NCBI RefSeq assembly: GCF_000337215.1
Contig: NZ_AOHZ01000061.1
Coordinates: 1-64,000, forward strand
DNA length: 64,000 nt
Direction of reading: 5' to 3'
Source: Natronolimnohabitans innermongolicus JCM 12255
GTDB taxonomy: Archaea > Halobacteriota > Halobacteria > Halobacteriales > Natrialbaceae
Made by a program: the position numbers and the translations under genes. Each line of letters opens with the position of its first letter. Positions within the stretch are counted from its first letter, which is position 1. The notes beneath the pieces are model-generated. The model was not told the origin of the DNA and did not search any database. It saw only the letters and a list, made by a program, of their open reading frames with translations. Positions 27,005 to 42,037 of the stretch are shown one piece after another.

Positions 27005-27048
27005 GTTCGCCACGTCGACGCTCGGGGAGTTGAGACCACCGGTCCGTC

Positions 27049-28740
27049 TCACCCGAGTCGCTCGTAGACCGGCCTCGTCGTCCCGGGTTCGGCGTCGGTG
27101 AGCCTCGAGACGGCTTCCCCGACCGACTCGAGGCTGGCCGTCTGTTCCTGGCTGGCCGCGGCGACCGACTGGGCGGCCGCGGCGACCTCGTCTGCACTCT
27201 CGGCGACGTCTTCGACCGTCGCCGCCGCCCGCTGGACGTTTCGCGCCTGCTGGTCGGTCGCCGCTGCGACGTCGTCCATCCGCGCCGCCGTCTCGCGTGC
27301 GGCGTCGTGGATCTCCTCGAGGTCGGCCATCGAGTCCCGGACGCGATCGGCGCCCCGGTCGACCCGCTCGACGGTTCGGTCGGTCGCGTCGACCGTCTCG
27401 AGGGCGTCCTCGCGAACGCCTTCGACCGCCGTTTCGATCGACTCGAGGTCGCGTCGCGTCTGGGCGGCGAACGACTCGACTTCCTCGGCGATGACGCCCA
27501 TCGTCCTGGCGTTCCCGCTCGCGTCTCCACCGGCACTTCCGTCGGCGCCCGAGCGCGTCGCCTCGATCTTCGCGTTCTTCGCCAGCACCGCCGTTCGTTC
27601 GGCGACTTCGTCGAGGCGCTCGAGAACGGCGTCGATCTCGTCGGTGCGCTCCTCGAGGGCGGCCGCGGATTTGGCGACGTCCTCGGTGGCGGCTTCGATT
27701 TGCTCGAGTTCCTCGAGGGCCTCGGTGGCCGCGCTCGCGCCGTTCGACGCGAGGCGTTCGGTTCGCTCGCTCTCCTCGCTGACGGCGTCGGTCGTACTCG
27801 CCACCTCTTCGATCGCGGCGCTCAGTTCGCCCAGTTCGGTCGCCGCCTGATTCGTGTCTTCGGCCTGGCTCTCGGTGTGCTCGCTGATTGCGACGGCGCG
27901 CTCGGCGATCTCTTCGCTGGCGTCGTGGAGCTCCTCGATCGGGCCCTGAACGTCTTCCTCGACGTCGCGTGCAAGCCGCTTCCGGCGCTCGATCGAGTCC
28001 TCGAGATCCTGTGCGTACGAGTCGACGTACGTCTCGGTCGCGATCTGCATGTCGAGGTTGATGATCCGAAGCAGGGAGAGGACGTCGTGCAGTCCGTCGT
28101 CGATCGCGTCCCTGACGGTCGCTTCGAACGATTCCTCGAGGCCGTCCTGCTGATCGTCTTCGACCTGGCTCTCGCTCCCGCCGCCGAACCCGAGCGCACC
28201 GGCCAGGCCGCCGAGTCCGCCCTCCGTTTCTTCGGTCTCGTTTTGTTCGGCCGCCCACGTTTCGATCTCCGCGATCACCTGTTCCTGAATTCGTTCGTTG
28301 AGCTGCTCGAGCAACAGATCGTAGTAGACGCCGTACTGCCCGATGTAGTGTTTGAGCGGCATGTCGAGCAGTTCGTGAAGTTTCCCGATCCGAGCGCGGT
28401 TCGCGAAGAACTCCTGGTCGTAGTCGCCGGTCGAAAGCGAAACGAGGTAGGCACTCTGGGTCTGCTTGAGCGCGTTGACGTCCTTCGGCGACCGCTCGAT
28501 CACCGTCCGCGTCCCCTCGTACCCCAGCAGATTTTCGTAGAAGTCGTCGGCGATCGCCGTCTGATTGTCCCGAAGCAGGTCCTCGAGGTCGGCGAGTCGC
28601 CGCTCGTCGTCCGCGTCGAAGCCGATGAAGTGCTTTCGCCAGTCGAGTTCCTGTTCGGTCAGCCCGATCCGGTCGACGAGTTCGTCGACCTCGAGAAACT
28701 CGTTGAGTTTCCCGGTTCCGAACGTCTGCGCAGGATCCAT
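27049..28740 (-). CDS. hemAT: HemAT-type globin-coupled chemotaxis transducer
   Basis: 563 aa from ATG 28740 (MDPAQTFGTGKLNEF). Residues 1-170 form a sensor globin of the HemAT/globin-coupled type, with proximal His122 in RIGKLHELLDMP; the rest is a soluble methyl-accepting chemotaxis domain with long coiled coils (AIEEVASTTDAVSEESERTE) and a kinase-interaction tip at AKNAKIEATRSGADGSAG. No membrane helix, as expected for cytoplasmic oxygen sensors. It binds O2 via haem and steers flagellar rotation through CheA/CheW. Unusual: an insertion of Gly/Glu-rich low complexity between globin and coiled coil (about 180-215). Confidence 0.95.
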   Translation of the reverse strand: MDPAQTFGTGKLNEFLEVDELVDRIGLTEQELDWRKHFIGFDADDERRLADLEDLLRDNQTAIADDFYENLLGYEGTRTVIERSPKDVNALKQTQSAYLVSLSTGDYDQEFFANRARIGKLHELLDMPLKHYIGQYGVYYDLLLEQLNERIQEQVIAEIETWAAEQNETEETEGGLGGLAGALGFGGGSESQVEDDQQDGLEESFEATVRDAIDDGLHDVLSLLRIINLDMQIATETYVDSYAQDLEDSIERRKRLARDVEEDVQGPIEELHDASEEIAERAVAISEHTESQAEDTNQAATELGELSAAIEEVASTTDAVSEESERTERLASNGASAATEALEELEQIEAATEDVAKSAAALEERTDEIDAVLERLDEVAERTAVLAKNAKIEATRSGADGSAGGDASGNARTMGVIAEEVESFAAQTRRDLESIETAVEGVREDALETVDATDRTVERVDRGADRVRDSMADLEEIHDAARETAARMDDVAAATDQQARNVQRAAATVEDVAESADEVAAAAQSVAAASQEQTASLESVGEAVSRLTDAEPGTTRPVYERLG

Positions 28741-28916
28741 TGTATGAACATATTCGGTGAGTGGCTGAAATGACGGCGCCAATTCCTATCGACTGGGAAC
28801 ACTGTAAATCTATCGTGATGGTTTCCGTGGGGGAGCCGCTGACGGGCGTCCCGGTACCCCTACGGCGGCGTTCGAAGGTGGAACATCCTTATACGTGTCC
28901 GCCGACCAGCTAGCAT

Positions 28917-30803
28917 ATGAACGTCGTGCCGGATACGAGCGTGGTCATCGACGGCCGCGTCTCGGTGGCGATCGAAGACGGGCAGTTCGAGGGAGCGACG
29001 ATTTCGGTGCCGGAAGCCGTCGTCGCGGAGCTCGAAGCGCAGGCCAACGACGGGATCGAGAGCGGCTGGGACGGTCTCGAGGAACTCCAGCGTCTGGCCG
29101 ACCTCGCCGACGAGGGAACGGTCGAACTCGAGTACATCGGCGAGCGGCCGAGCGCCATCGAGCGGGGCCACGCCTCCGAGGGAGAGATCGACGCGCTGAT
29201 CCGGGACCTCGCGGAGGACCACGAGGCGACCTTCATGACCAGCGACGTCGTTCAGGCGGAGGTCGCCCGGGCGAAGGGCCTCGAGGTCGAGCACGTCTCC
29301 CCCGAGGTCCGGGAGGTAGGTACGCTCACGGTCGAGAACTATTTCGACGACCAGACGATGAGCGTCCACCTCAAGACGGACGCCGTCCCGAAGGCAAAGC
29401 GGGGCGAACTCGGCGAGATGCACTACGAGCCGATCGCCGACGAGCCGCTTGAGGAGGCGACGATGGACGAGTACGCCCGCGAGGTCATCGACGGCGCCAA
29501 GGAATCCTCGGAGGGCTTCATCGAACTCTCCCAGCCGGGGATGAAGATCGTCCAGTTTCGCGACTACCGAATCGCCATCGGGCGACCGCCGTTTTCCGAC
29601 GGCATCGAGATCACGGCCGTCCGGCCGATCGCCCAGACCGACATCGAGGACTACGAGAACGCCGACGAACTGAAAGAACGGCTGCTCGAGCGCCAGCGCG
29701 GCGTCCTCATCTCGGGAGCGCCGGGAGCCGGGAAGTCGACGTTCGCACAGGCGGTCGCCCGGTTCATCTCGAATCACGACTACGCGGTCAAAACGATGGA
29801 GAAACCGCGGGACCTGCAGGTCGGCCCCGAGATCACCCAGTACACCGAACTGGGCGGCGAGATGGCCAACACGGCCGACGCCCTGCTGATGGTCCGACCC
29901 GACTACACGATCTACGACGAGGTCCGCAAAACCGACGACTTCGAGGTCTTCGCGGACATGCGCCTGGCGGGTGTCGGCATGATCGGCGTCGTCCACGCGA
30001 CGCGTCCGATCGACGCCCTCCAGCGACTCGTGGGACGGGTCGAACTCGGGATGATTCCACAGGTCGTCGACACCGTCGTCTACATAGAAGCTGGGGAGGT
30101 AAACACCGTCTACGACGTCCGGACGGAGGTCAAGGTCCCCGCCGGCCTCACCGAGGAGGACCTCGCCCGCCCGGTGATCCAGGTCACGAACTTCGAAACC
30201 GGCGAGCCCGAGTACGAGATCTACACCTTCAACCGCCAGGTCGTCACCGTCCCCCTCAAAGACGAGGAGGGCGGCCCCGGCAGCGAGTCCGGCGTCGACC
30301 GCATCGCCAAACAGGAGATCGAACGCGAGATCCGCTCGATCGCGCGGGGTTACGTCGACGTCGAACTCCGGAGCCAGGATAAAGCGGTCGTCTACGTCGA
30401 AGAGAACGACATCTCGAGCGTCATCGGCAAGGGCGGCGGTCGGATCACCGACGTCGAGAACCGCCTCGGCATCGACATCGACGTCCGAACCCACGACGAG
30501 AACCCCAACTACGGCGCCGGCGGTGGTGGCGGCGGAGCGACCGCCAACGGCGCCGGCGGCGGTGGCGGGGGCCAGCAGACCGCTGGCGAGATGGTAACGC
30601 CCGAAATCACCTCGAGACACATCGTCATCCCCGTCGACGGCAACCACGGCGAGACCGTCGAGGTGCAGGCCGGCGGCGACTACCTCTTCACCGCGACGGT
30701 GAGTCGCGGGGGCGAGATTCAGGTGTCTCGAGGGAGTGCGATCGCCGACGAGTTAGAGCAGGCGATCGATCGCAAGGAGCCGGTGTCGGTCGTGCCGTCG
30801 TAA
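28917..30803 (+). CDS. PIN domain, VirB11-like ATPase and KH domain protein
   Basis: 628 aa. Three parts in order: a PIN (VapC-like) domain with Asp6 in VVPDTSVVIDGR and ADEGTVELEY; a PilT/VirB11-type ATPase with Walker A GAPGAGKS near residues 266-273 and a Walker B-like MLMVRPDYTIYDEVRKT; then a KH domain (SSVIGKGGGRITDVENRLG, about 498-517), a Gly-rich linker and a short conserved tail. The family occurs in nearly all Euryarchaeota and is thought to act in RNA quality control. All three active parts look intact. A TATA-like cttatacg lies 22-29 nt upstream. Confidence 0.95.
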   Translation: MNVVPDTSVVIDGRVSVAIEDGQFEGATISVPEAVVAELEAQANDGIESGWDGLEELQRLADLADEGTVELEYIGERPSAIERGHASEGEIDALIRDLAEDHEATFMTSDVVQAEVARAKGLEVEHVSPEVREVGTLTVENYFDDQTMSVHLKTDAVPKAKRGELGEMHYEPIADEPLEEATMDEYAREVIDGAKESSEGFIELSQPGMKIVQFRDYRIAIGRPPFSDGIEITAVRPIAQTDIEDYENADELKERLLERQRGVLISGAPGAGKSTFAQAVARFISNHDYAVKTMEKPRDLQVGPEITQYTELGGEMANTADALLMVRPDYTIYDEVRKTDDFEVFADMRLAGVGMIGVVHATRPIDALQRLVGRVELGMIPQVVDTVVYIEAGEVNTVYDVRTEVKVPAGLTEEDLARPVIQVTNFETGEPEYEIYTFNRQVVTVPLKDEEGGPGSESGVDRIAKQEIEREIRSIARGYVDVELRSQDKAVVYVEENDISSVIGKGGGRITDVENRLGIDIDVRTHDENPNYGAGGGGGGATANGAGGGGGGQQTAGEMVTPEITSRHIVIPVDGNHGETVEVQAGGDYLFTATVSRGGEIQVSRGSAIADELEQAIDRKEPVSVVPS

Positions 30804-30884
30804 CAGTTGTTGGCAATGTGATCTACTTTATTCAGTCTGACCGGCTCGGACACTGCGAGATCCTTACCGGTTATTGTTCGGTTG

Positions 30885-31820
30885 TCAGTGCTCCGACTTC
30901 GGATTTTCTATCTGTTTCTTGACGTTGGTTTCATCTGGAGTGACGGGCTTCACTCGAAGCTCTCCGAAACCGTACTTCGAGTGGTTCCCGGCGCGGGTCA
31001 CTCCAGAGATCGCGGTCTCCACCGGACGGTCGCCGTCGTAGCCGACGACCACACCGTGATCGACGGTTTCTAACTCGTAGATGTCTCCGCCCTCGATGAT
31101 CTTCTCCAGCCGCTGGCGTAGCCGCGCTTCGTCGTCTATGCTCCACCACCAGGGCACGTCCACGTTGTTCGCCTTCGGGTACTCTGACCGGAGAACGAAC
31201 GGCGTCACGAGTTCGAGGATGAACGCCTCGCCGTCTTCGAGACGCGAGTAGTCTAGGGCCTCCAGGTCAACGACCTGCGTGTCTTTCAGCGTGGTCGTCC
31301 CGTAGCCGTAGTTACGTTTGCCGCCGAACTGGAGTCCATCGAGCACGTCCTCGCCCAGGGGGAGTACGCCAGGGTCATCGGCGTGCAAGTAGGCATTCAC
31401 GTACCAGCGCGTGGTCTGCTGCTGTTTCCGAGCGTCGTCGGGCCGACCCATGATCGTCTCGTGAGCCAACGCTGGCATCCCACTCTGGAACCGGATATCG
31501 TGGGCGTTCAGTCCGTCGCGGGGTCGGGTATCGAGCAGCCACGGATGGTCGGGATGCCGAAAGAGGAACAGGTCGTTGTAGCTCTCCACGTCAGGGAGCG
31601 ACGACCCCATGTACGGGCGAATGCCACTCTGTGAGTGCTCCTCGGGGAACGTCCCGAACTGGCCGGGAACGAACATCCCGTGGCTGGCGTTGATGTGCTG
31701 GTGGATGTCGTGCTCCAGCTGCATCCCGAGCGCGTGGTAGATCGCGTTCCCCGAGACGTAGTAGGGGTGCCCGAGATAGTCCATGTCGAGTTCCCAATGG
31801 ACCTGCTGGATGCGGGTCAC
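30885..31820 (-). CDS. Cas5-like RAMP protein with two RRM domains (HRAMP component)
   Basis: 311 aa from a GTG at 31820 that overlaps the previous gene's TGA (GTGA). Two glycine-rich loops are diagnostic of RAMP/RRM folds: LQFGGKRNYGYGTTT (residues 163-177) and VTRAGNHSKYGFGELRV (274-290). The two-RRM plan with loops at the ends of both domains matches Cas5/Csm4-like proteins, which bind the 5' handle of crRNA. An N-terminal WELDMDYLGHPYYVSGNAIYHAL block gives the first beta-alpha unit. It ends the six-gene operon. Alternatives: a Cas6-like endonuclease, since the second loop lies at the extreme C-terminus; but no clear catalytic His near the N-terminus stands out. HRAMP assignment is from memory of the published description. 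Confidence 0.72.
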   Translation of the reverse strand: MTRIQQVHWELDMDYLGHPYYVSGNAIYHALGMQLEHDIHQHINASHGMFVPGQFGTFPEEHSQSGIRPYMGSSLPDVESYNDLFLFRHPDHPWLLDTRPRDGLNAHDIRFQSGMPALAHETIMGRPDDARKQQQTTRWYVNAYLHADDPGVLPLGEDVLDGLQFGGKRNYGYGTTTLKDTQVVDLEALDYSRLEDGEAFILELVTPFVLRSEYPKANNVDVPWWWSIDDEARLRQRLEKIIEGGDIYELETVDHGVVVGYDGDRPVETAISGVTRAGNHSKYGFGELRVKPVTPDETNVKKQIENPKSEH

Positions 31821-32599
31821 GCGTTCTCCCTCCGGGTTTCGAGATCCTCGATGTACTGGAGCGCAGTGCTCCAACTCCAGATCCGCCGGAGGTTCGCATC
31901 GAGCACCATGTCGTGCTTGTCGTGATTGACATCGAGCGGGTGCGCGGTGAGGCGCTTCCACGCCGACTCCCACGACCGCCACGGGCGGCTTCCAAGGCGG
32001 GCCCACGGTTGCCCGCCTGCACTCCCGTCGATACGGAGCGCGAAGCGGTCGCCCGCGTAGACCGTCCGGTGGGGCACGATCTCCTCGCTATCGTCCACGA
32101 CCAGGAGGAGATCGGCGAACTCGTGGCCGGCGCGGTAGTTGTCCAAGAGCGCCGCCACGAGCAGCGTGTGGAACTTCAAGCTCGTGTACGGGTAGTAGAT
32201 GCTCTCGTTGAACCCGCTCGCTACGTCCGACGTGAGCCACGCCCGATGCATCACTTCGGGGTCGGAGCCCGTCAGCAGGTCGTTGATGGCCTCAGAGAGA
32301 CGCGGACGTGAGAACTCCTTGGGGTCGTAGTGAGAGTCGCCCGTCAGCAGTGAGAGCCGGTAGTGCGTCTCGTGGTTGTCCACAGTCTGTTCGGGCTTCC
32401 CGTTGGGCCGTGAGAGCGCCGACGCGTCGCCGTCCGCGCCGTGCGGGACGGTCTGATTCACCGGGACGCCGTGGAAGGTGTCCGGCGCGTAGTCGTGCGT
32501 CTCGCCGTTGAGCTTGTGGGCGTCGTGGCGGTAGGCCGCGACCATCACGTTCTGACCGCCGTCGCCCTGGAAGTCGCTAAGGGTGGCGTTCTCGGGCAT
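31817..32599 (-). CDS. Uncharacterised component of the RAMP operon
   Basis: 260 aa. No family recognised. The ATG follows the stop of the Cas7-like gene with no gap (TAG/ATG), and the gene's TGA overlaps the GTG of the Cas5-like gene. Visible features: a His/Asp-rich section (YRHDAHKLNGETHDY; VDNHETHYRLSLLTGDSHYD), a central alpha/beta segment (TSLKFHTLLVAALLDNYRAGHEF; LLLVVDDSEEIVPH) and a Trp/Arg-rich basic patch (RPWRSWESAWKRLTAHP) that could bind nucleic acid. Published HRAMP loci include one conserved uncharacterised protein besides Cas5 and Cas7 homologues; this gene has that position. The His cluster could be metal-binding, so a nuclease role is possible but unproven. Confidence 0.7.
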   Translation of the reverse strand: MPENATLSDFQGDGGQNVMVAAYRHDAHKLNGETHDYAPDTFHGVPVNQTVPHGADGDASALSRPNGKPEQTVDNHETHYRLSLLTGDSHYDPKEFSRPRLSEAINDLLTGSDPEVMHRAWLTSDVASGFNESIYYPYTSLKFHTLLVAALLDNYRAGHEFADLLLVVDDSEEIVPHRTVYAGDRFALRIDGSAGGQPWARLGSRPWRSWESAWKRLTAHPLDVNHDKHDMVLDANLRRIWSWSTALQYIEDLETRRENA

Positions 32600-33463
32600 C
32601 TACGGCCCCTCCTCGATGCGCTCTTCCAGCGCCTCCACGAACGCCGGGCGGTACTCTTCGGCCCACTGGTCGTCTTTCTCGTCCATCTTGTTCGTGTTGC
32701 CCTTCCCGCGGTCGAAGACGCGCTTCAGTTCGCGCTCCTCGTACAGCGGATTGATGAGGTGGCAATCGACGATCCCCGCGCCGAAGTTTCGCGCGCCACC
32801 GAGTTGGTGCATGAAGTCCGTCTTGTGCCCATCTAGGAAGTTGATCCCCTCGACGAGCAGGCCGATGAACTCGGGCTTCGTCTCCCGGAAGGAGAGGTGC
32901 CAGCAACCGTCAAGATTCGCCACGGCGTCCACCTCGGTGTTCCGTAGCGGTTCGCGGTTGTCCTCTCGGTTGCGAGAGACGACGTTCCGGTTCAGCCGGC
33001 GGTAGTGGCCTTCAGCCTGTCCGCGCGTGTAGTCCACGCTGTAGCGGACAGGGTTGAACTTGATCGGACGACGCATCACCTTCCCGGGCTGGTTGCCGAA
33101 TCCACCGAAGAGATCGAAGACGACACAGCCGTCGTCTTCCTTCGGGTCGTCGGTACACGCACCCTTCTCGTGATAATCGTCGTCGAGGTCGCGCTCGTAG
33201 ACGCCGTCCTTCATGAAGTTCGCGTTGGCCTCACCAGGATGGCAAGCGGTCCCGCCGTACTCGTGGACGACGCGCTCCATTCCATGGCGGAGCCAGCCCG
33301 AGAGCGGGAACGAGGGGATGATACCGCCGATCTGGTTCTGTGGGTCGTCGTCCTCGTAGTTCCCATTGCTGGCGTGGTGTCGGTCGGTCATGATCGAATC
33401 GCCGACCACCAGCAGGTCAGTCTGGATGCGGACGAACACGTCGCGGTCGAGATCTTCAATCAT
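32600..33463 (-). CDS. Cas7-like RAMP protein (Csm3/Csf2-like, HRAMP component)
   Basis: 287 aa. Shows the Csm3/Cas7 pattern: N-terminal strand FVRIQTDLLVVGDS; the RAMP insertion helix GGIIPSFPLSGWLRHGMER (47-65, compare IPGSSLKGxLR of Csm3); a Cys-bearing loop (C74, C103, C113) ending VVFDLFGGFG; and a C-terminal Gly-rich loop LGGARNFGAGIVDCHL (221-236). Cas7 proteins form the crRNA-binding backbone of class 1 effectors. Linked to a Cas5-like protein but to no Cas10, Cas8, Cas1/2 or CRISPR array. The glycine loop and SGWLRHG motif are intact. It fits the derived haloarchaeal system known as HRAMP; type IV Csf2 is the nearest alternative. Confidence 0.78.
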   Translation of the reverse strand: MIEDLDRDVFVRIQTDLLVVGDSIMTDRHHASNGNYEDDDPQNQIGGIIPSFPLSGWLRHGMERVVHEYGGTACHPGEANANFMKDGVYERDLDDDYHEKGACTDDPKEDDGCVVFDLFGGFGNQPGKVMRRPIKFNPVRYSVDYTRGQAEGHYRRLNRNVVSRNREDNREPLRNTEVDAVANLDGCWHLSFRETKPEFIGLLVEGINFLDGHKTDFMHQLGGARNFGAGIVDCHLINPLYEERELKRVFDRGKGNTNKMDEKDDQWAEEYRPAFVEALEERIEEGP

Positions 33464-33468
33464 GGGTG

Positions 33469-33603
33469 TTAGCAGCTTTCCAGTGCTGTTTTGAGGGCTT
33501 CGAGACTGCCGTAGCCAATGCCGCCAATCTCGTACTCCGTGTACGTAGTTCCCTCATCTGTGCGGACGATCTGGGCCGTCACACGGGGGTCACTGGATCG
33601 CAT
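33469..33603 (-). CDS. 44-aa protein inside the RAMP operon
   Basis: ATG at 33603, TAA at 33469-33471. Translation MRSSDPRVTAQIVRTDEGTT, then YTEYEIGGIGYGSLEALKTA and LESC. The start overlaps the 3' end of the upstream gene by 14 nt; the stop lies five nt before the Cas7-like ATG. The packing into an otherwise gapless operon argues that it is a real gene. Beta-strand then a helix after GGIGYGS; it resembles no family known to me, though KTSC-like small proteins share such a layout. Confidence 0.6.
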   Translation of the reverse strand: MRSSDPRVTAQIVRTDEGTTYTEYEIGGIGYGSLEALKTALESC

Positions 33604-34030
33604 CGGTCACCCCCTGACTCTTGTACTCCTCTTCCAGTTCGTCAAGCAGGTCTTCCGCGTCTGCCAGAACGTGACGGGTGTGTTCGAAGTCTGAACATCC
33701 GGGTCCGTTCCCGACGTTATCGTCTTCGATGGCTCTCCCAAGGGTGAGGAACGACGAATGGATGAACCGCACGAGGTTGAAAAGCCGTACCTTCGGGCTT
33801 TGGCGGTCAAGGACACCGATCCGTTCGAGATCGTCACTCACGTGCTCAATGTACTCGTCGGACCGAGAAACCATCAGCCAGAACTCCTCTTCAACGTCTT
33901 CGCCATGCTCAATACCGTCGCTGATTCGGTGAGCGTGGGGATCGACCTCTTCGGTGAAGAACGACTGGATGTTGATCGACATCTCCTGCCGAGCAATCCG
34001 CTCCCAGTTTGGACCGTTGTCACTAGGCAT
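33590..34030 (-). CDS. Helical protein of the RAMP operon (possible small subunit)
   Basis: 146 aa, predicted largely alpha-helical and acidic: NWERIARQEMSINIQSFF, EEFWLMVSRSDEYIEHVSDD, VRLFNLVRFIHSSFLTLGRA, TRHVLADAEDLLDELEEEYK. No motif recognised. Its size, all-helical nature and position between other complex components would suit a Cas11-type small subunit (Csm2/Cmr5/Cse2), but a HEPN-like accessory protein is an alternative. ATG overlaps the preceding stop (TGATG). The function is an inference from context only. Confidence 0.65.
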   Translation of the reverse strand: MPSDNGPNWERIARQEMSINIQSFFTEEVDPHAHRISDGIEHGEDVEEEFWLMVSRSDEYIEHVSDDLERIGVLDRQSPKVRLFNLVRFIHSSFLTLGRAIEDDNVGNGPGCSDFEHTRHVLADAEDLLDELEEEYKSQGVTDAIQ

Positions 34031-34347
34031 CAGGCGGACCCCTCCGTTGAGATACTGCGTACGAAAGCTTCGAATGGACTCTCATCGTCGGCGTAGTAGT
34101 GCCGATCGGCCCAATCTCGATTATCTACTCTATCCCGGACAAACTTCACGTAGTCATCGACGAAGTGAACGTTGAGAACACACTTCTGGATGAGCAGGCC
34201 GTCTGGGACGACGTGGATCGTCCCGTCGCTCGTCCGGTAGACGTGGGACGCGCCTTCGGTGTTGTCGCCCAGCTCGATGTAGGTCGGGCGCGGAGCGTTG
34301 TAGTTGCGAGCGATGCCTTCAATGGGATTGGGATCTGATTTCTTCAT
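34030..34347 (-). CDS. First gene of the RAMP operon, unknown
   Basis: 105 aa. Starts MKKSDPNPIEGIARNY directly after the structured leader. Contains a short beta-rich core (SHVYRTSDGTIHVVPDGLLIQKCVLNV) and a helical C-terminus (VDDYVKFVRDRVDNRDWADR). No recognised domain. The last codon overlaps the next ATG (TGATG), so translation is coupled. Role unknown; as the first product after the leader it might regulate or bind it. Confidence 0.65.
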   Translation of the reverse strand: MKKSDPNPIEGIARNYNAPRPTYIELGDNTEGASHVYRTSDGTIHVVPDGLLIQKCVLNVHFVDDYVKFVRDRVDNRDWADRHYYADDESPFEAFVRSISTEGSA

Positions 34348-34440
34348 GGGTTTCTGCTTCCCAGAAGCCCAGTCCGCGTGTCTCCAGCACGCGGACGTTT
34401 CCTGCGATGGTCACGCCCCGAGGGACCGGGCTCCCTTTAC
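34348..34440 (-). ncRNA. Structured 5' leader of the RAMP operon (candidate guide or regulatory RNA)
   Basis: Between the promoter and the first ATG lie about 93 nt with three hairpins. In transcript order: AGGGA (34432-34436) paired with TCCCT (34421-34425); a perfect 9-bp stem GTCCGCGTG (34388-34396)/CACGCGGAC (34372-34380) with a 7-nt loop; and GCTTC (34364-34368)/GAAGC (34356-34360) with a 3-nt loop. CAGGAAACG precedes the long stem and GCAGAAACCC follows the last one, recalling GAAAC ends of CRISPR repeats. Haloarchaeal leaders are usually absent or very short, so the length is notable. Function inferred only. Confidence 0.5.
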
Positions 34441-34460
34441 CCTGCCTTACTAGGCGTGGG

Positions 34461-34470
34461 TAATAAAAAT
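34461..34470 (-). promoter_or_regulatory. TATA box of the RAMP operon
   Basis: Minus-strand atttttatta, about 25-30 nt before the first base of the structured leader (near 34440). The nearest start codon is 114 nt further, so this transcript is not leaderless. Confidence 0.6.
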
Positions 34471-34493
34471 AGCGGTGCCGTGTGAGGCAGGGG

Positions 34494-34501
34494 GTTAAGT
34501 A
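34494..34501 (+). promoter_or_regulatory. TATA box of the divergent regulator gene
   Basis: gttaagta lies 22-29 nt before the ATG at 34523, the spacing of a leaderless transcript. It is only 23 bp from the operon's TATA box, so one bound regulator could affect both. Confidence 0.5.
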
Positions 34502-34522
34502 CTGGGAATATGAATTGCCGCT

Positions 34523-34765
34523 ATGGACGAGGACCGGGAACGAAACTCTCAGGGCCGATTTACTGCGGAACATGACGTGACTGCGGAAGATGTCTACGAA
34601 GCAATGGATCAGTTCGAACCCTATACCAGCCGGGAGATTGCCGACAATTTGGACATCCCGCGACGGACGGCGTACAAATTCCTTAATGATCTGGCGGACG
34701 CCGGACTCATCCGAAAGAAAAAGCCAGAGCCACGTCGTGCCATTTGGATCCGGAACGAGGAATGA
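34523..34765 (+). CDS. Winged-helix transcriptional regulator next to the RAMP operon
   Basis: 80 aa: MDEDRERNSQGRFTAEHDVT, then EDVYEAMDQFEPYTSREIAD, a recognition region NLDIPRRTAYKFLNDLADAG, and a Lys-rich wing (LIRKKKPEPRRAIWIR). This is a minimal HTH of the type often found on haloarchaeal mobile and defence loci. It is divergent from the RAMP operon and the two TATA boxes are 23 bp apart, so it probably controls the operon and itself. Confidence 0.85.
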   Translation: MDEDRERNSQGRFTAEHDVTAEDVYEAMDQFEPYTSREIADNLDIPRRTAYKFLNDLADAGLIRKKKPEPRRAIWIRNEE

Positions 34766-34779
34766 TCACGCATGGCTGA

Positions 34780-35160
34780 AGATGGGGCTTAGACCATGAG
34801 GCAGAGGAATCAAGTTATCAAACGATCAGCAATCAGGAATTATGGAGGAAACGGTATGAACGAACGGTCGGAGACGCGGATCCAGACTTTCAGGATGAGC
34901 TTGAGCCTGTCCGCGTGCCGATCACTGACCCGGCGTACCACAACCTCAAAACATAACTGCTGAAGAACATCGTCGAGCACGATGATCTCCCTTCCGCGGT
35001 CGGGGGACGTGATTTCAAAAACCGGCATGACAACGAGACGGTGCTTTAGTCGCATAACCCTAATTTCGTCACTCCCGACGGCGAACTCCCACCATATGAT
35101 GCGTTCCCAATCCGGCGAGAGAACGTGTGGTTAGAACAATACATATCGAGAGCCGGGTTC
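34780..35160 (+). pseudogene. Broken ORF with two in-frame stops beside the RAMP operon
   Basis: One frame gives RWGLDHEAEESSYQTISNQE, then LWRKRYERTVGDADPDFQDE, continues to DPAYHNLKT and stops (TAA), resumes LLKNIVEHDDLPSAVGGRDF to DNETVL, stops (TAG), and continues SHNPNFVTPDGELPPYDAFP up to WLEQYISRAGF. The protein-like composition on both sides of each stop, without frame change, indicates a gene decayed by nonsense mutations. Its tail overlaps the convergent beta-propeller gene. Family not recognised. It lacks a clear ATG. Confidence 0.55.
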
Positions 35161-36423
35161 CCACCGAAACCCGTACAGCGTCTCGTCCGTCGCGGCGACG
35201 AGTCGGTCGTCGACGAGGAACAGCTCGTCCCCACAGTCGACGTCTTCGTAGCGCTCCACCGACCACCAGTCGTCGCCGTCGGCGGCGACGCCGACGAGGT
35301 CGCAGCCGCGTCCGCCGTTTCCCTCGAGCGTCCCGTAGCCGTAGACGCCGTCGGCGTTAGCGACCGGCCCGGCGGTGAACCGAACGTCGTCGCGGTGCCA
35401 CTCCCGCTCGCCCGTCCCGAGGTCGATCGCGGTCAGCGACTCGCCGCTGGCGTGATAGAGCCGGTCGGTCGAACCGGTCTCGACGATCGCCGGATCGTGC
35501 GAGCGCGGCGGTGACTCGAGGGGAACCGTATACGCCGACTCCCTGTTGCGGTCCAGTCCCCGAAGCTCGCCGTCGACGGCCAGCAGGAGCGCCGGTCCGG
35601 CGTCGCCGCCGGCAGTCTCGAGCCAGCCCGGTGTTGTGGCCAGTTCGACGTCGGCTACCACCGATCCGTCGGCGTCGACGGCGACGAGGAGTGCGTCGCC
35701 GTTCTCGCGGTCCTCGAGAGCAGTCCAGACGAGGTCGTCCGCGACGGCGAGGGCTCGTATCCGCGGGTCGTCCGGTTCGTCGCCGACACGGGACCCGAAC
35801 AACCCGTCTTCGAACTCGAGGTGGAACAGCTCCGTGCCGTCGGTCGCGTCGAAGCCGACGACGCCGTCGGCGTGGCTGCCGGCGACGAGCGACTCGCTCG
35901 CCTCGAGTGCGAGTCGCGGCACTCGATCCGCATCGTCGTCCTCGTCCGGCTCGGTATCGGACGCGTCGCTCTCCTCGGCGTGGTACCACTCCGCTTTCCA
36001 CGTCGTTTGGGCGCCCTCGGCGGTCGAATCGACCCTCGCTTGCCGCTGTTCGTCACCGTCGCGCTCGAGTCGCACGACCGTGCCGTCCTCGAGCGGGAGG
36101 AATGCGGCGCCATCGGCAATTGCCGGCTCACCGTGACGGCTGGCGTCGGGGCTCCCGGTCCACACCGCCTGACCGCCGCCGTCGTAGACGTGTACGGTCC
36201 CGTCGCTGGGACCGAACGGCCCCACGGAGCGCTCGAAGACGGCGAACAGGTGCGTGCCGTCCCCGAGCCAGGTTACGCTCGGCGAGCCGCCGTACGGATC
36301 GACCGATTCGGTCCAGTCGAAGTCGCCGGCGGCGGCCTGATAGCCGCAGCCGGCGAGCCCCGTCGCCAGGCCGGTTCCGACCGCTGCGAGCAGTCGGCGT
36401 CTCCCGAGTCGGTCGCCGATCAT
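35131..36423 (-). CDS. PQQ-like beta-propeller lipoprotein
   Basis: 430 aa. Tat-type lipoprotein signal: GRRRLLAAVGTGLATGLAGC with lipobox Cys26. The mature part is a beta-propeller with about seven repeats of the form (V)xxxDxxDGxxxW/F, for instance VGFDATDGTELFHLEFED and TAIDLGTGEREWHRDD, as in PQQ-binding-like/BamB-like proteins. Acidic insert DTEPDEDDDAD. The ATG overlaps the stop of the HtpX-like gene (ATGA), so the two are co-translated: a membrane protease and an exported scaffold. Its 3' end runs into the broken ORF on the other strand. Confidence 0.88.
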   Translation of the reverse strand: MIGDRLGRRRLLAAVGTGLATGLAGCGYQAAAGDFDWTESVDPYGGSPSVTWLGDGTHLFAVFERSVGPFGPSDGTVHVYDGGGQAVWTGSPDASRHGEPAIADGAAFLPLEDGTVVRLERDGDEQRQARVDSTAEGAQTTWKAEWYHAEESDASDTEPDEDDDADRVPRLALEASESLVAGSHADGVVGFDATDGTELFHLEFEDGLFGSRVGDEPDDPRIRALAVADDLVWTALEDRENGDALLVAVDADGSVVADVELATTPGWLETAGGDAGPALLLAVDGELRGLDRNRESAYTVPLESPPRSHDPAIVETGSTDRLYHASGESLTAIDLGTGEREWHRDDVRFTAGPVANADGVYGYGTLEGNGGRGCDLVGVAADGDDWWSVERYEDVDCGDELFLVDDRLVAATDETLYGFRWEPGSRYVLF

Positions 36424-37448
36424 TCGGTTTCCCTCGCGAGCTCCCGAAGCCGTTCGATTCGCTTCGCTGTCGGCGGATGCGTGTCCGGGAAGATATCGGT
36501 GCTGACGAGTTCTTTCGAGGCGAAGTCGCGCCCCTCGAGCGGCGCGAGGTAGAGCGCTTCCGTGCCGCCGTCGAGCCGTCGCAGATCGCGGTCGGGAACG
36601 TCGGTCATCGTCTCGTCGATCGTCTCGAGTGCGCTCGCGAGTGCGGCGGGCGAGCCGGTGATCGTCGCGGCGGCCCGGTCCGCGGCGTACTCGCGCTCAC
36701 GGGAGAGCACGCGGTAAAAGAGCACGCTCGCGGCCCAGAACATCGCCGAGACGGTCAGCGTCACGACGGCCGTGACGGTGATGACGACCACCGCGACGAG
36801 GAGCCCGCGTCCGTCGCTGTCGCCGCCGCTCGAGCCGCCGAATCCGTGACCGAGCAGGCGGTAGAACCCGTAAAGGACGTAAAACGCCGCGATCGCGAGG
36901 TAGTAGGTAATCGTCGGCAACAGCCACGCGACGGTCATCAGCCTCGCGTCCTGATTTCTGAGGTGGGCGAGTTCGTGCGCCAGGACGGCCTCGAGTTCGG
37001 CGTCGTCGAGTTCCTCGAGCAGCGCCGAGGTGACGACGACCCGTTCGTCGCCGCCGCCGGCGACGGCGAAGGCGTTCGGCGCCCGACTCTCGACGACCGC
37101 GACGTCGGGTTTGGCGACGTCGACCTGGGCGGCCAGCCGCGTCACGGTCGCGTGGAGGTCGGGATAGGCGTCCGCGTCGACTGATCGGCCGCCGACGGAG
37201 CCGACGACGGCGCGGGGACCGAACCGGTACTGGACGACGAGGCCGCCGAGGACGACGACGGCGAGCAAGACGGGGTCGACGTAGAACTCGCCGTGGTAGG
37301 GCCGTTCGTTGGCCCACTCGAGCAACGCGATGCCGACGGTGTTCGCGAGAGCCACGAAGGTGTAGACGAACGCGAACGGGAGGACGACGAGCAATCCGAG
37401 CGCGACGAGCATTCGGAGCCGGAGGGCGTGATCGTCTGGGCGGGACAT
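36420..37448 (-). CDS. htpX: M48 family membrane metalloprotease (HtpX-like)
   Basis: 342 aa from the ATG at 37448 (MSRPDDHALRLRMLV). Two N-terminal membrane helices (about 12-40 and 60-72), zinc motif HELAH at residues 158-162 within EAVLAHELAHLRNQD, two more helices, and the third ligand in SREREYAADRAAA. All catalytic residues are present. HtpX-type proteases degrade misfolded membrane proteins. Promoter region shared with nadE on the opposite strand. Confidence 0.93.
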   Translation of the reverse strand: MSRPDDHALRLRMLVALGLLVVLPFAFVYTFVALANTVGIALLEWANERPYHGEFYVDPVLLAVVVLGGLVVQYRFGPRAVVGSVGGRSVDADAYPDLHATVTRLAAQVDVAKPDVAVVESRAPNAFAVAGGGDERVVVTSALLEELDDAELEAVLAHELAHLRNQDARLMTVAWLLPTITYYLAIAAFYVLYGFYRLLGHGFGGSSGGDSDGRGLLVAVVVITVTAVVTLTVSAMFWAASVLFYRVLSREREYAADRAAATITGSPAALASALETIDETMTDVPDRDLRRLDGGTEALYLAPLEGRDFASKELVSTDIFPDTHPPTAKRIERLRELARETE

Positions 37449-37666
37449 TGTGACGGAAACCGTAGCTGTCGTTCGGTTGTAAGCTCTCGACCATAACTGT
37501 ATTCCTCGCCGATCGGGGCCGAACCTACCGTTCGGTCGCGCTCGAGTCGGTCGCGGTGCCCGACCGGCCACTGTAAGACGTTCTCACTAGTAGCTGTTTA
37601 AGGGTTAAGCATTTATACGAGACGAATGTCTAACCAGGTACGAAATAAGATGGTGTTTGAACGCAA

Positions 37667-38554
37667 ATGAGCGTCGATAAGGAAACGGCCGTCTACTCGG
37701 GAATCGGTCACACGAACGGCTCGTTCATCACGGATCGCCCCGGCCTGGAACTCGTTCGCTCGCGGATTACGAGCGATATTCGGACGGCCGTCGAGAACGC
37801 CGGCGCGGACGGCGTCGTCGTCGCGATGAGCGGCGGAATCGACTCGACGGTGACGGCGGCGCTGGCCGTCGAAGCCGTCGGCAGCGACCGCGTCCTCGGG
37901 CTCGGACTTCCCTGTCACAAGAGCGAGGCGGCAGGGGTCAGCGAGGCGCGGACCATCGCCGACGGGTTCGGCATCGAGTTCGAGGAGATTCAGCTGCGGC
38001 CGGTGCTCGAGGCGTTCGAGCGAACGGTCGCGGACGAGATCGACGACCGGGAGTCGGACGCGGACCGGCCGTACGAGCGCAACCACGCGGTCGGAAACGT
38101 TACCGCGAGGCTGCGGATGATCGCGGCCTACTACGCGGCAAACAGGCAGCGCCGGCTCGTCCTCGGCACCGCGAACCGGTCGGAACTGCTGCTCGGCTAC
38201 TTCACCAAGTACGGCGACGGCGCGGCCGATCGATACCCGATCGGCGACCTCTACAAGACGGAAGTTCGCGCGCTCGCAAAGCGGATCGGCATCCCCAAGC
38301 GGATCGTCAGCAAGGCGCCCTCAGCGGGGTTCTGGGCCGACCAGACCGACGCGGACGAACTCGGCGCGACCTACGACGTTATCGATCCGCTACTGCAGCG
38401 TCTCGTCGACGAGGGGCTGACGGCGGGCGACGCGGCCGACATCCTCGAAGTGGACCGCGAGACGGCACGATCGATCGCGTGGCTCTGTGCCGAAACGGCA
38501 CACAAGCGGTCGATACCGGCGACGCCAGGGATCGCGGACCGCGCCGTCGAGTGA
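37667..38554 (+). CDS. nadE: Ammonia-dependent NAD+ synthetase
   Basis: 295 aa. Catalyses the last step of NAD+ synthesis from deamido-NAD+ with ammonia and ATP. PP-loop SGGIDST at residues 55-61; GTANRSELLLGYFTKYGDGAADRYPIGDLYKTEV is the nadE core; the C-terminal basic HKRSIP is typical. There is no glutaminase domain, so it uses free ammonia. Promoter: AT-rich ttaagcatttatacg about 37606-37620; ATG at 37667. Confidence 0.95.
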   Translation: MSVDKETAVYSGIGHTNGSFITDRPGLELVRSRITSDIRTAVENAGADGVVVAMSGGIDSTVTAALAVEAVGSDRVLGLGLPCHKSEAAGVSEARTIADGFGIEFEEIQLRPVLEAFERTVADEIDDRESDADRPYERNHAVGNVTARLRMIAAYYAANRQRRLVLGTANRSELLLGYFTKYGDGAADRYPIGDLYKTEVRALAKRIGIPKRIVSKAPSAGFWADQTDADELGATYDVIDPLLQRLVDEGLTAGDAADILEVDRETARSIAWLCAETAHKRSIPATPGIADRAVE

Positions 38555-38587
38555 CCGGTTCGTCGGTCGCCGGTTAGCCGTCGCCGA

Positions 38588-38992
38588 TCACTGCTGTCGG
38601 TACAGTTCCGTATTACGCCACCAGAACAGTCCCCACGAGAGCATGAAGCCGGCACCCATCGCGACGATATCACGGATGAGATCCGTCACGCCCGCATCCA
38701 CCAGCGGGACGAGGGCGATCGCCGACCCCATCGCGGCACCGACGACGATGAAAATCAGGTCACCAATCATGTGTTCCCGTGAGTTCTCCCAGTACACCTG
38801 GCGCTCCTCGTCGTACCAGACGCCGATATAGATCAAGACCGGAGCCATGGACGTGATCACCGTAATCACCTGATACTCCGGCTCGAGCCCCGCTGGGCCG
38901 AGTACGAGCAAGTTGATCGAGTTCGCGAGAATCGCCATCGCGAACAGTCCGACCAGGAGCCATCCCCAGCGCGGTAACGTCTCTTTGTCCAT
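38588..38992 (-). CDS. Membrane protein with four helices
   Basis: 134 aa: helices at about 9-30, 42-58, 76-97 and 106-125, with WYDEERQVYWENSREHM in the cytoplasmic or external loop. No family recognised. The reading frame has normal codon use for the region and an ATG at 38992. It ends 33 bp from the convergent nadE stop. Function unknown. Confidence 0.72.
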   Translation of the reverse strand: MDKETLPRWGWLLVGLFAMAILANSINLLVLGPAGLEPEYQVITVITSMAPVLIYIGVWYDEERQVYWENSREHMIGDLIFIVVGAAMGSAIALVPLVDAGVTDLIRDIVAMGAGFMLSWGLFWWRNTELYRQQ

Positions 38993-39055
38993 GCAGGGAG
39001 ACGGTCACCGCGAGAAAATAATCCTCCTGTTTTGGACTCCCACGCCGGCGTCGGG

Positions 39056-39349
39056 CTACTCCGCGCAGCAGGCGTCCTTTTTCGGGGACTCTTCGACGCC
39101 GTTTCCGTCGGCTGCCACCGGTTCCTCGAGACGATAGAGACTCTGTCGGGCGTCAGCGAAGTAGATGTCCTCGTCGACGATTCCGATATCTTCGAGGCGC
39201 TCGAGCGCGTAGCGGACGGTCCGGGCTGACAGCATCGATTCCTCGACGATCTGCTTTTGGGTCAACGGCCCGTCGTACTCGAGTACCTTGAAAACGAGTT
39301 TGGCACTCGGTGGCAAATCTTCGATGTCCTCCCCGTCGGTCTCTGCCAT
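39056..39349 (-). CDS. HTH regulator (MarR/TrmB-like)
   Basis: 97 aa from MAETDGEDIEDLPP. A compact winged helix: PSAKLVFKVLEYDGPLTQKQIVEE, recognition helix MLSARTVRYALERLEDIGIVDED, wing IYFADARQSLYRL. This layout with SARTVRYALxxLxxxGIV is typical of small haloarchaeal MarR-like regulators. A Cys-Cys pair at the C-terminus (KKDACCAE) may bind metal or sense redox. A TATA-like sequence (ttttatgct on the minus strand, about 39374-39382) lies 25-33 nt upstream. Confidence 0.85.
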   Translation of the reverse strand: MAETDGEDIEDLPPSAKLVFKVLEYDGPLTQKQIVEESMLSARTVRYALERLEDIGIVDEDIYFADARQSLYRLEEPVAADGNGVEESPKKDACCAE

Positions 39350-39531
39350 ATTACGAATCGAAAGGTCCCAGCAGCATAAAAGTTGAGCCTTACCGTCGAT
39401 AGCTGACGTGAAATATTCCAATACAATACTACGAGGAAATACTATTATGACGGGCGCTATTCCGTAATCTGGCTGTTTGACCGGGTAGTCAGACGCTGGT
39501 GAAATTTGGCAGTATCGAGACGGCGGTGACG

Positions 39532-40707
39532 CTACAGTTGCTGCCAGACGTCTTCGTCGTCGTCGAATCCGTCCTCGGGGTCCGCGAACTCGTCACTGCC
39601 CTCGAGTTCGAGATCGTCGGGCGTAATCGGGGGTTCGGCGTCGGCGACTGCTGACTGGTCCTCGAGATCCATCTCGGGCCAGGCGGTCTCCTCCCAGAGG
39701 CCGCGATCGCTGTAGTAGTAGACGACGCCGTCGCTGACGACGGCAAACAGCCCTCGTTGCGTGTCGTGGACGACGCGTTCGTTCGTATCGATCGCGACGT
39801 CGACGACGTCCTCGATCGTATCGAGCGAGACGTGATAGTCCCCGATCCACATCGGGATCGACCCCCGCGAGATCCACTCGGCGTAGCGCCGTTCGTGGAC
39901 CGCCCGACGCGCGGCCGCTTCGTCGATCGGCGAACGGCGGGCGGCGAAGACGCCGCCGGCGATCGCGAGCGTACCGAGCAGCGAGAGCGCGGCGATCGCC
40001 GTGAGGTTTCGCGGCTCAGTCGTCTCCTCGGTTCCCGTCTGAACGGTGTTCTCGTCGGTTGCCGACAGCGACTCCTCGAGCCAGTAGGCGTCGTCAGTTA
40101 CCTCGAGCGGCGATGACGCCGTGTGGACGCCCTCCGTCGTCCCGGTGTCGTACTCCGCGCGGAACTCGAGACGGAGATCGACCGCCCCGACGCCGGAGAG
40201 CGCGCTCTCGAGTTCCTGCTGTCGGTCGCGGTAGGCGTCGACGTCGATCGTCGTCTCGGACGTCGCCGCGCCGTCCTCGACGGTCGGCGACCCGTCTATC
40301 AGCGTGTGGGTCTCGTTCCAGAACACCGAGTCGTCGCGAGTCGCCTCGAACCGAAGCGTCAGTTCGTGGTCGACGACACCGTCGTCGATCGGCGTTCTGT
40401 CGCTCGTATTTTGCAACTCGGTCGTCGGCTCGAGGGTTAGCTCCGGCGAGTCCTCGAGCATGTACACGCCGCTGTTCTCGAGGCGATCGCCCTCGCTCCA
40501 CAGCGCCCCGTCCTGGACGACGACGGCGCTCGTCTCGACGTCGCTCGAGACGCGTTCGTCCCCGTACTGGACGGTCGTCGACGTTGACGGCGTCGCGACG
40601 ACCCAGCCGGTCGCCACGAGCGCGAGGACGCCGATGGCGATCAACCCAATCGCGATCGTTCGACCGTGCTCTGCGAGCACCAACTCGAGGCGCGGGTTAT
40701 CGATCAC
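39532..40707 (-). CDS. DUF5305 domain-containing membrane protein
   Basis: 391 aa starting with GTG at 40707 (IDNPRLELVLAEHGR). N-terminal helix (about 17-39), exported beta-rich domain to residue 235 (ELTLRFEATRDDSVFWNETH), a second helix near 245-262, then a cytoplasmic domain (RRYAEWISRGSIPMW; VVSDGVVYYYSDRGLWEE). This is the DUF5305 architecture, which accompanies SipW-like signal peptidases and DUF1102 proteins in haloarchaea. Role: probably an assembly or anchoring factor of the surface protein cassette. 163 bp separate it from the signal peptidase gene. Confidence 0.85.
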   Translation of the reverse strand: MIDNPRLELVLAEHGRTIAIGLIAIGVLALVATGWVVATPSTSTTVQYGDERVSSDVETSAVVVQDGALWSEGDRLENSGVYMLEDSPELTLEPTTELQNTSDRTPIDDGVVDHELTLRFEATRDDSVFWNETHTLIDGSPTVEDGAATSETTIDVDAYRDRQQELESALSGVGAVDLRLEFRAEYDTGTTEGVHTASSPLEVTDDAYWLEESLSATDENTVQTGTEETTEPRNLTAIAALSLLGTLAIAGGVFAARRSPIDEAAARRAVHERRYAEWISRGSIPMWIGDYHVSLDTIEDVVDVAIDTNERVVHDTQRGLFAVVSDGVVYYYSDRGLWEETAWPEMDLEDQSAVADAEPPITPDDLELEGSDEFADPEDGFDDDEDVWQQL

Positions 40708-40870
40708 GGACCGACCACCCCGGGTCTGGTCGGGTCACTCGAGACGGCGACCGGCACCCCCACGACTCCCGAACCGACCCGCCCCCACGGGCCGGTTGGA
40801 GAACGCACATGTATCGAGACACATCTATCGAGCAATATAACGATATTGGCCGCAGTCTCCCCTTGTCTCG

Positions 40871-42037
40871 TTACAACCATTTCTTGAACTTCCGCTCGAG
40901 TCGCGTCGAGAGCGGCACGTGATCGCCGGCCGAGCGGACGCGAATGTCGTTGTATCCGAAGACGAGAAGTACGAGCGCCACCGTGGCGCCGACGATAACG
41001 CCGTTGACCGCGGCGATCGCGGCGAGCGGGTGGAGTCCGTGGAGCCAGACGAGCACCGTCGGCGGGAGCACCATCAGGTATCGGTATTCGCGTACGTCTC
41101 GCGTGTACTCGCCGGTCTCCTCGGGAGCGGTCAGGGAGACCGTGGTTTCGCCGCTCGAGCGCAGTCCCACTGTCTGCGATTCGGGTTCCACCGCGGCGCC
41201 GCGGTCGGCCTCGTGGACGGCGACGATCGGCAGGTAGCCCGCGTTGTCGACGGCCTGCGTGAGTTCGCCGGTCTCACCGGGGGCGAGTACTTGCGGATCG
41301 TCGCTCGGCGAGTCGGTACTCACGAGCCCGTACTCGGCGGTTCCGGCGGGAACGACCATAGCCGCGGTCGCGAACGTCACGAACACCAGGAGAATCAATC
41401 CAAGCGCCGTCCAGAACGCAATCACGTTCGTGCGAGAGCGCGAGCGACTCGTCTCGCGTTGTCCGGGCCCCAGTTGGTCGAGGACCACGCCGAAGCCGAG
41501 TATCGCGACGCCGACGCCGACTAACATCGCGCCGAGCCCCTCCGAGTCGGGAGCGGACGCGACGCCGACGACCGACCCAACGGTGCCTATCGCCGACTCG
41601 ACGACGCTCTGGACGCCCATGATGGCCGTGCCGAGATACGGGATCGTCACTGCGTTGCCGTTTACTTGCCAGGCGGTGGCGACGATCTGGCTCTCGGAGA
41701 CGTGCGGTTCGCCGCCGTCTTGATCGGTAAAGGGATTGGCGTCGCCCCTGGTGACGTATCCCTCGTCGGTTTCCTCGACGACGCGGTGGGTCGTCAGCTC
41801 CCCGTCGTGGAGCTCCCGGGCTTCGAACACGATGATATCACCCTCGCCGACGTCACCGGAGACGACGCTCGGAATCGCGACGAAGCCGTCGCCGGCGTCC
41901 ATCGTCGGCTCCATGCTCCCCGTCGCGACGTATCCGAGCAGGATCGGCTGTCCGAGCAGTTGGCCGACCACCAGGAGGACGATCAGGAGCCCGGCGCCGA
42001 GCGCCAGCGCTCGCTTTAGAAGTGCCGTCGACGTCAT
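40871..42037 (-). CDS. Signal peptidase I, archaeal/SipW type
   Basis: 388 aa. Catalytic Ser41 in ATGSMEPTM and His84 in LTTHRVVE (archaeal/ER-type Ser-His instead of Ser-Lys); the GDIIVFEAR and GYVTRGDANPFTD boxes complete the family core up to about residue 120. The C-terminal two thirds hold more helices and a beta-rich domain (TVSLTAPEETGEYTRDVRE), an extension typical of haloarchaeal signal peptidases in DUF1102 clusters. It likely processes the nearby exported proteins. Confidence 0.9.
   Translation of the reverse strand: MTSTALLKRALALGAGLLIVLLVVGQLLGQPILLGYVATGSMEPTMDAGDGFVAIPSVVSGDVGEGDIIVFEARELHDGELTTHRVVEETDEGYVTRGDANPFTDQDGGEPHVSESQIVATAWQVNGNAVTIPYLGTAIMGVQSVVESAIGTVGSVVGVASAPDSEGLGAMLVGVGVAILGFGVVLDQLGPGQRETSRSRSRTNVIAFWTALGLILLVFVTFATAAMVVPAGTAEYGLVSTDSPSDDPQVLAPGETGELTQAVDNAGYLPIVAVHEADRGAAVEPESQTVGLRSSGETTVSLTAPEETGEYTRDVREYRYLMVLPPTVLVWLHGLHPLAAIAAVNGVIVGATVALVLLVFGYNDIRVRSAGDHVPLSTRLERKFKKWL

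Follow-up and report, generated by a model that had tools for sequence, protein, structure and literature searches.

The window analyzed here, a 64,000-nucleotide stretch of DNA from Natronolimnohabitans innermongolicus JCM 12255 (NZ_AOHZ01000061.1), carries on its minus strand an operon with the gene order p105, p146, Cas7-like, p260, and Cas5/Cmr3-like, headed by a structured leader and a promoter, with a divergent regulator gene beyond them (Table 1). An earlier note on this DNA had described the operon as a RAMP system with Cas7- and Cas5-like proteins and without a CRISPR array. Both parts of this description agree with the evidence: in addition to the weak PADLOC matches, a type III RAMP profile of NCBIfam weakly matches an operon protein (E 0.0017); the low-confidence predicted structure of the Cas7-like protein (pLDDT 60, pTM 0.65) finds its best Foldseek matches in the PDB among Cas7-type subunits of type III, IV, and VII complexes (E ~1e-3); and no CRISPR-like direct repeats with unique spacers were found at positions 26000-42000 of the window. 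HRAMP is presented in two reviews as an array-less haloarchaeal RAMP system (PMC8730458, PMC12669027). This locus, where the Cas7 and Cas5 homologues are diverged and no array was found, fits such a system, as judged from weak profile and fold matches.

Table 1. Features of the leader, its promoter region, and the adjoining genes, in window coordinates
Feature	Position	Strand	Evidence or remark
Leader RNA, 5' end through ATG inclusive	34345..34439	-	cmsearch R2 85.4 bits, E 2.8e-19 (the 95-nt window leader is itself among the model seed sequences)
P1, junction closing helix	34423-34435 (GGGAGCCCGGUCC) with 34363-34375 (GGACUGGGCUUCU)	-	covariation
P2, GGGCGU/ACGUCC	34413-34418 with 34393-34398	-	7/8 pairs covary
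P3, GCGUG/CACGC	34388-34392 with 34376-34380	-	4/5 pairs covary, 99.8% paired
9-bp hairpin of the earlier note: P3 plus 4 bp competing with P1/P2	34372..34396	-	alternative state
P4, alternative start-codon hairpin UGGGCUUCUG/CAGAAACCCA	34347..34371	-	mutually exclusive with P1
Conserved element in first codons	34311..34323	-	+25 to +30 and 'CG' at +36/+37
p105, first gene after leader	34030..34347	-	105 aa, small lineage-specific family
p146, second gene	33590..34030	-	146 aa, no assigned role
HRAMP Cas7-like protein	32600..33463	-	PADLOC Csm3 E 2e-4
p260, conserved HRAMP gene	31817..32599	-	no assigned role
HRAMP Cas5/Cmr3-like protein	30885..31820	-	PADLOC Cmr3 E 3e-5
TATA-like box	34462..34469	-	~28 bp upstream of leader
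Operator-like inverted repeat CCCTGCCT (34485-34492) / AGGCAGGG (34440-34447, minus-strand letters)	34440..34492	.	flanks TATA box
Divergent winged-helix (TrmB-like) regulator gene	34523..34765	+	80 aa; Pfam TrmB E 4e-9

Profile searches with Pfam, NCBIfam, and PADLOC returned no match for p105, and a search for related loci with this protein as query retrieved nothing. Further observations at the locus concern the gap upstream of cas7 (33464-33593), which is 68-88% conserved over parts in several HRAMP loci and may possibly be a further gene remnant or element, and an ARAGORN call of tRNA-Thr at 39755-39833, which overlaps a 33-nt tandem repeat within a coding region; Rfam finds no tRNA there, and the call is probably false.

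The leader lies downstream of a TATA-like box, TTTTTATT (34462-34469), and runs to the ATG at 34347-34345; its extent of 34345-34439 extends the segment first noted (34348-34440). The earlier note's central observation, a real folded leader between promoter and first ATG, holds for the sequence as described and is conserved by comparison; its perfect 9-bp stem (GTCCGCGTG/CACGCGGAC) with a 7-nt loop, CTGGAGA, is present at 34372-34396. The GAAAC-like ends exist as motifs (GGAAAC and GAAACC) but do not mark the ends of repeats; the right-hand motif lies within the strand that is complementary to the P1 3' strand. The accompanying premise that most haloarchaeal genes are leaderless is true of Haloferax volcanii (two-thirds of genes) and not of Halobacterium salinarum (30%) (PMC8241225). 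When folded as a single sequence, the 93-nt leader is more stable than 196 of 200 dinucleotide shuffles (z -2.58), which is modest support; the comparative evidence is decisive. An Rfam covariance search found no family at gathering score in the window and no match to the leader in 13 further loci, and the best sub-threshold matches to the leader had E-values of 2.2 and 4.5. Several resemblances were also considered and discarded: a likeness to conserved regions of RNase P RNA, noted by eye, receives no support from Rfam; a kink-turn in the P2 loop was judged by eye not to be canonical; and a transcription terminator would call for a U-run, which is absent after P4.

The conserved fold is a three-way junction in which P1 encloses P2 and P3, and not the three hairpins originally described. 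Compensatory base changes in the stems of homologous leaders had been proposed as a check, and they are abundant: across 93 aligned leaders, two-sided change occurs at 24 of 27 pairs (0/500 shuffles), with 414 double-change cells against 113 in shuffled data and 93.3% of cells paired, counts that are flattered by alignments fitted to the structure. A first set of 53 distinct leaders likewise gave two-sided change at 24/27 pairs and 220 double-change cells against 65 shuffled. Despite the fitted alignments, chance is untenable given the size of the effect and the slid-structure control, in which 26-45% of cells are paired over the same 93 leaders. Within P1, 11 of 12 family-alignment pairs change on both sides, and 94.3% are paired. 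The 9-bp stem divides into an inner 5 bp (P3), kept in nearly every copy, and an outer 4 bp that is 85% paired; as many as 20 of 93 sequences break it at a given position, and these four outer pairs break when P1 changes. Strong conservation outside the helices is seen at two As in the P2 internal loop (34399-34400), one U in the 7-nt loop of P3 (34386), and the ACC before the ATG.

At paired positions, G-U combinations far outnumber A-C (213 vs 39), from which it follows that the leader acts as sense-strand RNA; its transcribed strand is thus under selection. The same excess bears on the idea of a DNA element, whether recombination site, operator, or promoter hairpin: copies do occur in mobile regions and tandem arrays, but the G-U count and the fixed order of TATA, leader, and ATG leave this reading with a negligible probability. 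That the leader is a conserved, structured, cis-acting RNA is, on comparative grounds, almost certain.

Covariance models were built in succession from 7 (R1), 55 (R2), and 93 (R3) sequences. R1 matched 181 of 392 haloarchaeal genomes at E<=0.1, and R2 matched 210 of the 392 at E<=0.001, a lower bound under strict search filters. Among 247 genomes sampled across the phylum, the 17 positives all belong to the window's own order, and BLAST searches of plasmids recovered copies in Halobacterium and Halococcus. Genomes may contain multiple copies, in some cases as a tandem series with one before each gene. When the leader was compared with 40 loci by blastn, six HRAMP loci matched at 79-89% identity over 63-91 nt; in these the leader is kept and p105 is undetectable. 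More generally, the first gene varies widely among loci (p105 family, Zn-ribbon, SWIM proteins) and the RNA is kept. Viral carriage was considered and rejected: phage records contain no match to the leader or to cas7, and nine viral contigs that fit the consensus DNA pattern gave no covariance model match. Judged by Rfam and by a literature search of mainly open-licence papers, the RNA family is apparently undescribed.

Particular genomic contexts deserve mention in their own right. Tandem leader-headed genes at four loci (L132-L135) and on NZ_CP095009.1 (L202, 9000-16250) encode SWIM zinc-finger proteins, a ~300-aa protein, a beta-CASP/RMMBL nuclease, an AAA ATPase, a winged-helix protein, and TFB; these clusters are possibly another mobile or defence system. 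On the Halobacterium salinarum plasmid pHSAL1 (116.5 kb), a second leader lies ~11 kb from the HRAMP genes, adjoining a divergent FaeA/PapI regulator, a transposase, and a PemK/MazF gene, and a nearby same-strand downstream gene is absent from the annotation.

The leader is coupled to translation starts throughout. An ATG followed by an open frame, mostly of 50-200 codons, ends 96 of the 96 copies examined; the ATG columns belong to the covariance model, and the open frame, promoter, and regulator do not. Four leaders were compared with the annotation of Halococcus dombrowskii, and all four stop exactly at an annotated start codon. The annotated start of the first gene in Haloarcula halobia (L203, 6270-6917) falls 108 nt (36 codons) past the leader ATG, in frame, and is probably mis-annotated. 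Conservation continues into the coding sequence: across 95 leaders, bases at +25-30 and the CG at +36/37 are kept whatever amino acid they specify, and the first base of codon 13 is G in 94 of 95, the residue being D, G, A, V, or E. A search for a helix within the first codons gave no consistent one, the best sums barely exceeding a null in which relatedness is not taken into account.

The 3' strand of P1 is complementary not only to its partner in the junction but also to the bases directly before the ATG, with which it can form the alternative hairpin P4. The arms of P4 co-vary: among 76 non-identical arm pairs, the mean helix score is 5.73, compared with 4.53 when partners are permuted, and 0 of 1000 permutations reach the observed value (0/500 in the first set). 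Scores are 5 or higher in 63 of the 76 and weak (<5) in 13. Arm types shift jointly, as in GGGTTC/GAACCC, GGTTTGTC/GACAAACC, GGTCTTC/GAAGACC, and GCTTCGTG/CACGAAGC. The P4 co-variation accordingly predicts a second fold at the start region that excludes P1, and comparison shows that both pairings are kept by compensatory change. Blocking the 5' strand of P1 in silico makes the pre-AUG bases less accessible, their mean probability of being unpaired falling from 0.57 to 0.26. For the window leader alone, the P1-P2-P3 fold is predicted at -41.4 kcal/mol and the hairpin-plus-P4 state at -28.7 kcal/mol, with parameters uncalibrated for molar salt. Inclusion of some of the coding sequence is enough to make the P4 state the best predicted fold, and the default state is therefore uncertain; any direction of switching is read from these energies. 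That the leader operates as a two-state switch at the start codon is, on this sequence comparison, likely.

How the leader relates to HRAMP depends on its distribution. The earlier note had favored a guide or scaffold RNA; in this reading the leader would be excised from the transcript to serve as the RNA component of the Cas7/Cas5-like complex. Such a role would suit a system described in one review as array-less (PMC8730458), with no array found near the window locus. It would also suit the canonical class of HRAMP loci, to which the window Cas7 is about 53-60% identical: R2 places the leader within about 1 kb ahead of cas7 at 39 of 40 sampled loci; all 4 further loci also have it, and the usual distance to cas7 is 500-1000 nt. 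Of 39 loci in the window's own class other than the window itself, 13 give an R2 match. R3 detects additional, weaker matches, and those in L065, L095, and L100 (a locus that lacks cas7) stop precisely at the start codon of p105. Leader and cas7 co-occur in genomes with an odds ratio of 3.2 (p 2e-6), a value inflated by the HRAMP-locus copies themselves. Among the 150 matches listed, 37 precede cas7 by no more than 3 kb and run in the same direction, and none lies opposite to or downstream of it; but 84 of these 150 are in genomes without detected HRAMP cas7, where other genes follow them. Some of the HRAMP-less leaders belong to decayed HRAMP loci (L146), and others head SWIM zinc-finger genes in beta-CASP nuclease clusters. 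HRAMP therefore makes use of the leader without having it to itself. Nor do the leaders themselves resemble guides: the 93 aligned sequences are conserved throughout, and no variable, spacer-sized segment was found along them; every copy examined runs into a start codon; and the strand before the ATG co-varies with P1, a feature for which a guide has no need. On the strength of distribution, missing spacer, and start-codon coupling, the guide or scaffold reading was rejected as highly improbable. The alternative raised alongside it, regulation of the leader's own operon, fares much better; cis regulation fits best and is well supported.

Upstream sequence is consistent with such a role. Relative to the RNA start, 81 of 95 leaders have a TATA-like element at -33 to -24, compared with 40 of 95 shuffled sequences, and this placement predicts the foot of P1 as the transcription start. 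As judged from the TATA element alone, the start thus falls at the RNA 5' end, and not downstream of the hairpins, as the earlier note had considered; covarying structure accordingly occupies the interval between the TATA-inferred transcription start and the start codon, as in a cis-regulatory leader. The inverted repeats that flank the TATA box are specific in sequence to each locus, and their arms match better within loci than between them (6.31 vs 4.81; the maximum of 300 permutations is 5.14). In 63 of 96 cases, a similar winged-helix gene lies beside the leader and is oriented divergently from it. By association, a promoter with operator-like repeats, usually beside a divergent winged-helix gene, should drive the leader.

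Taken as a whole, the locus is probably best explained by a new, haloarchaea-wide family of cis-regulatory RNAs, of which the HRAMP leader would be a 5' untranslated member acting as a two-state switch on translation of the operon's first gene. In the proposed mechanism, P1 would form first during transcription and would leave the AUG open, near the 5' end; for the isolated leader it is also the fold of lower predicted energy (about -41 versus -29 kcal/mol). A factor that opens P1 would free its 3' strand to cover the AUG through P4. Since a Shine-Dalgarno sequence can be dispensable for translation in archaea, the effect of masking by P4 may be confined to the AUG. The RNA switch on translation of the first gene and the winged-helix regulator would together place two locks on a cargo operon that differs by locus—HRAMP here, other operons elsewhere.

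The factor that would move such a switch can be imagined in different ways. RAMP proteins are RNA binders, and either one of them or the small first protein might bind the junction and lower its own translation; the leader directly precedes the operon to be controlled in every case examined, which follows the classic logic of leader autoregulation. But the first genes differ greatly and the RNA is kept, such that one dedicated binder would be improbable unless host-encoded, and we consider autoregulation of this kind quite unlikely. A ligand-sensing riboswitch, in which a small molecule or ion stabilizes one of the two states, would account for the pairing of a junction with a mutually exclusive start-codon hairpin, as well as for the wide distribution and several copies per genome; the downstream genes share no common metabolic theme, however, and so few unpaired bases are strongly conserved that there is no obvious ligand pocket. 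This reading, too, seems unlikely. A more tentative extension of the two-state switch is that the copies form a shared arming system, in which one host- or virus-triggered factor flips all of them and unites HRAMP, SWIM/beta-CASP, and other mobile cargo in a single RNA regulon; we regard this as a speculative possibility, with the odds against it.

Translation control in haloarchaea is poorly understood, and the family offers a strongly covarying leader found across the lineage, with a two-state design that lends itself to testing and hundreds of instances, some of them on plasmids of Halobacterium salinarum. Its architecture resembles translational riboswitches and other bistable 5' leaders in combining a structured 5' UTR with an alternative hairpin over the start codon. 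The fluoride riboswitch of Thermococcus kodakarensis provides a natural archaeal example; a single natural riboswitch had been experimentally established in archaea as of 2021 (PMC8241225). Unlike translational riboswitches, the present leader has no Rfam match and no obvious strongly conserved ligand core, and it is seen only in haloarchaea, on mobile and defence-like operons. The operon behind it resembles HRAMP loci in its Cas7-like and Cas5-like genes and absence of an array; the Haloarcula halobia HRAMP locus contains an HNH gene, and canonical class 2 can carry an HNH nuclease. Unlike HRAMP proper, the leader is common to non-HRAMP operons as well. The available sections of HRAMP reviews mention no RNA component (PMC8730458, PMC12669027). 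For HRAMP, the conserved RNA more probably exerts control than supplies the missing guide, and an HRAMP RNA should therefore be sought elsewhere. As a small RNA beside CRISPR-related genes, the leader also recalls creA/creT and scaRNA; these need a degenerate repeat and a targeting segment, neither of which is seen in it. Finally, the small divergent winged-helix gene and the operator repeats around the TATA box are reminiscent of divergent regulator-promoter modules, from which this locus differs in that the module is joined to a conserved, putative RNA switch.
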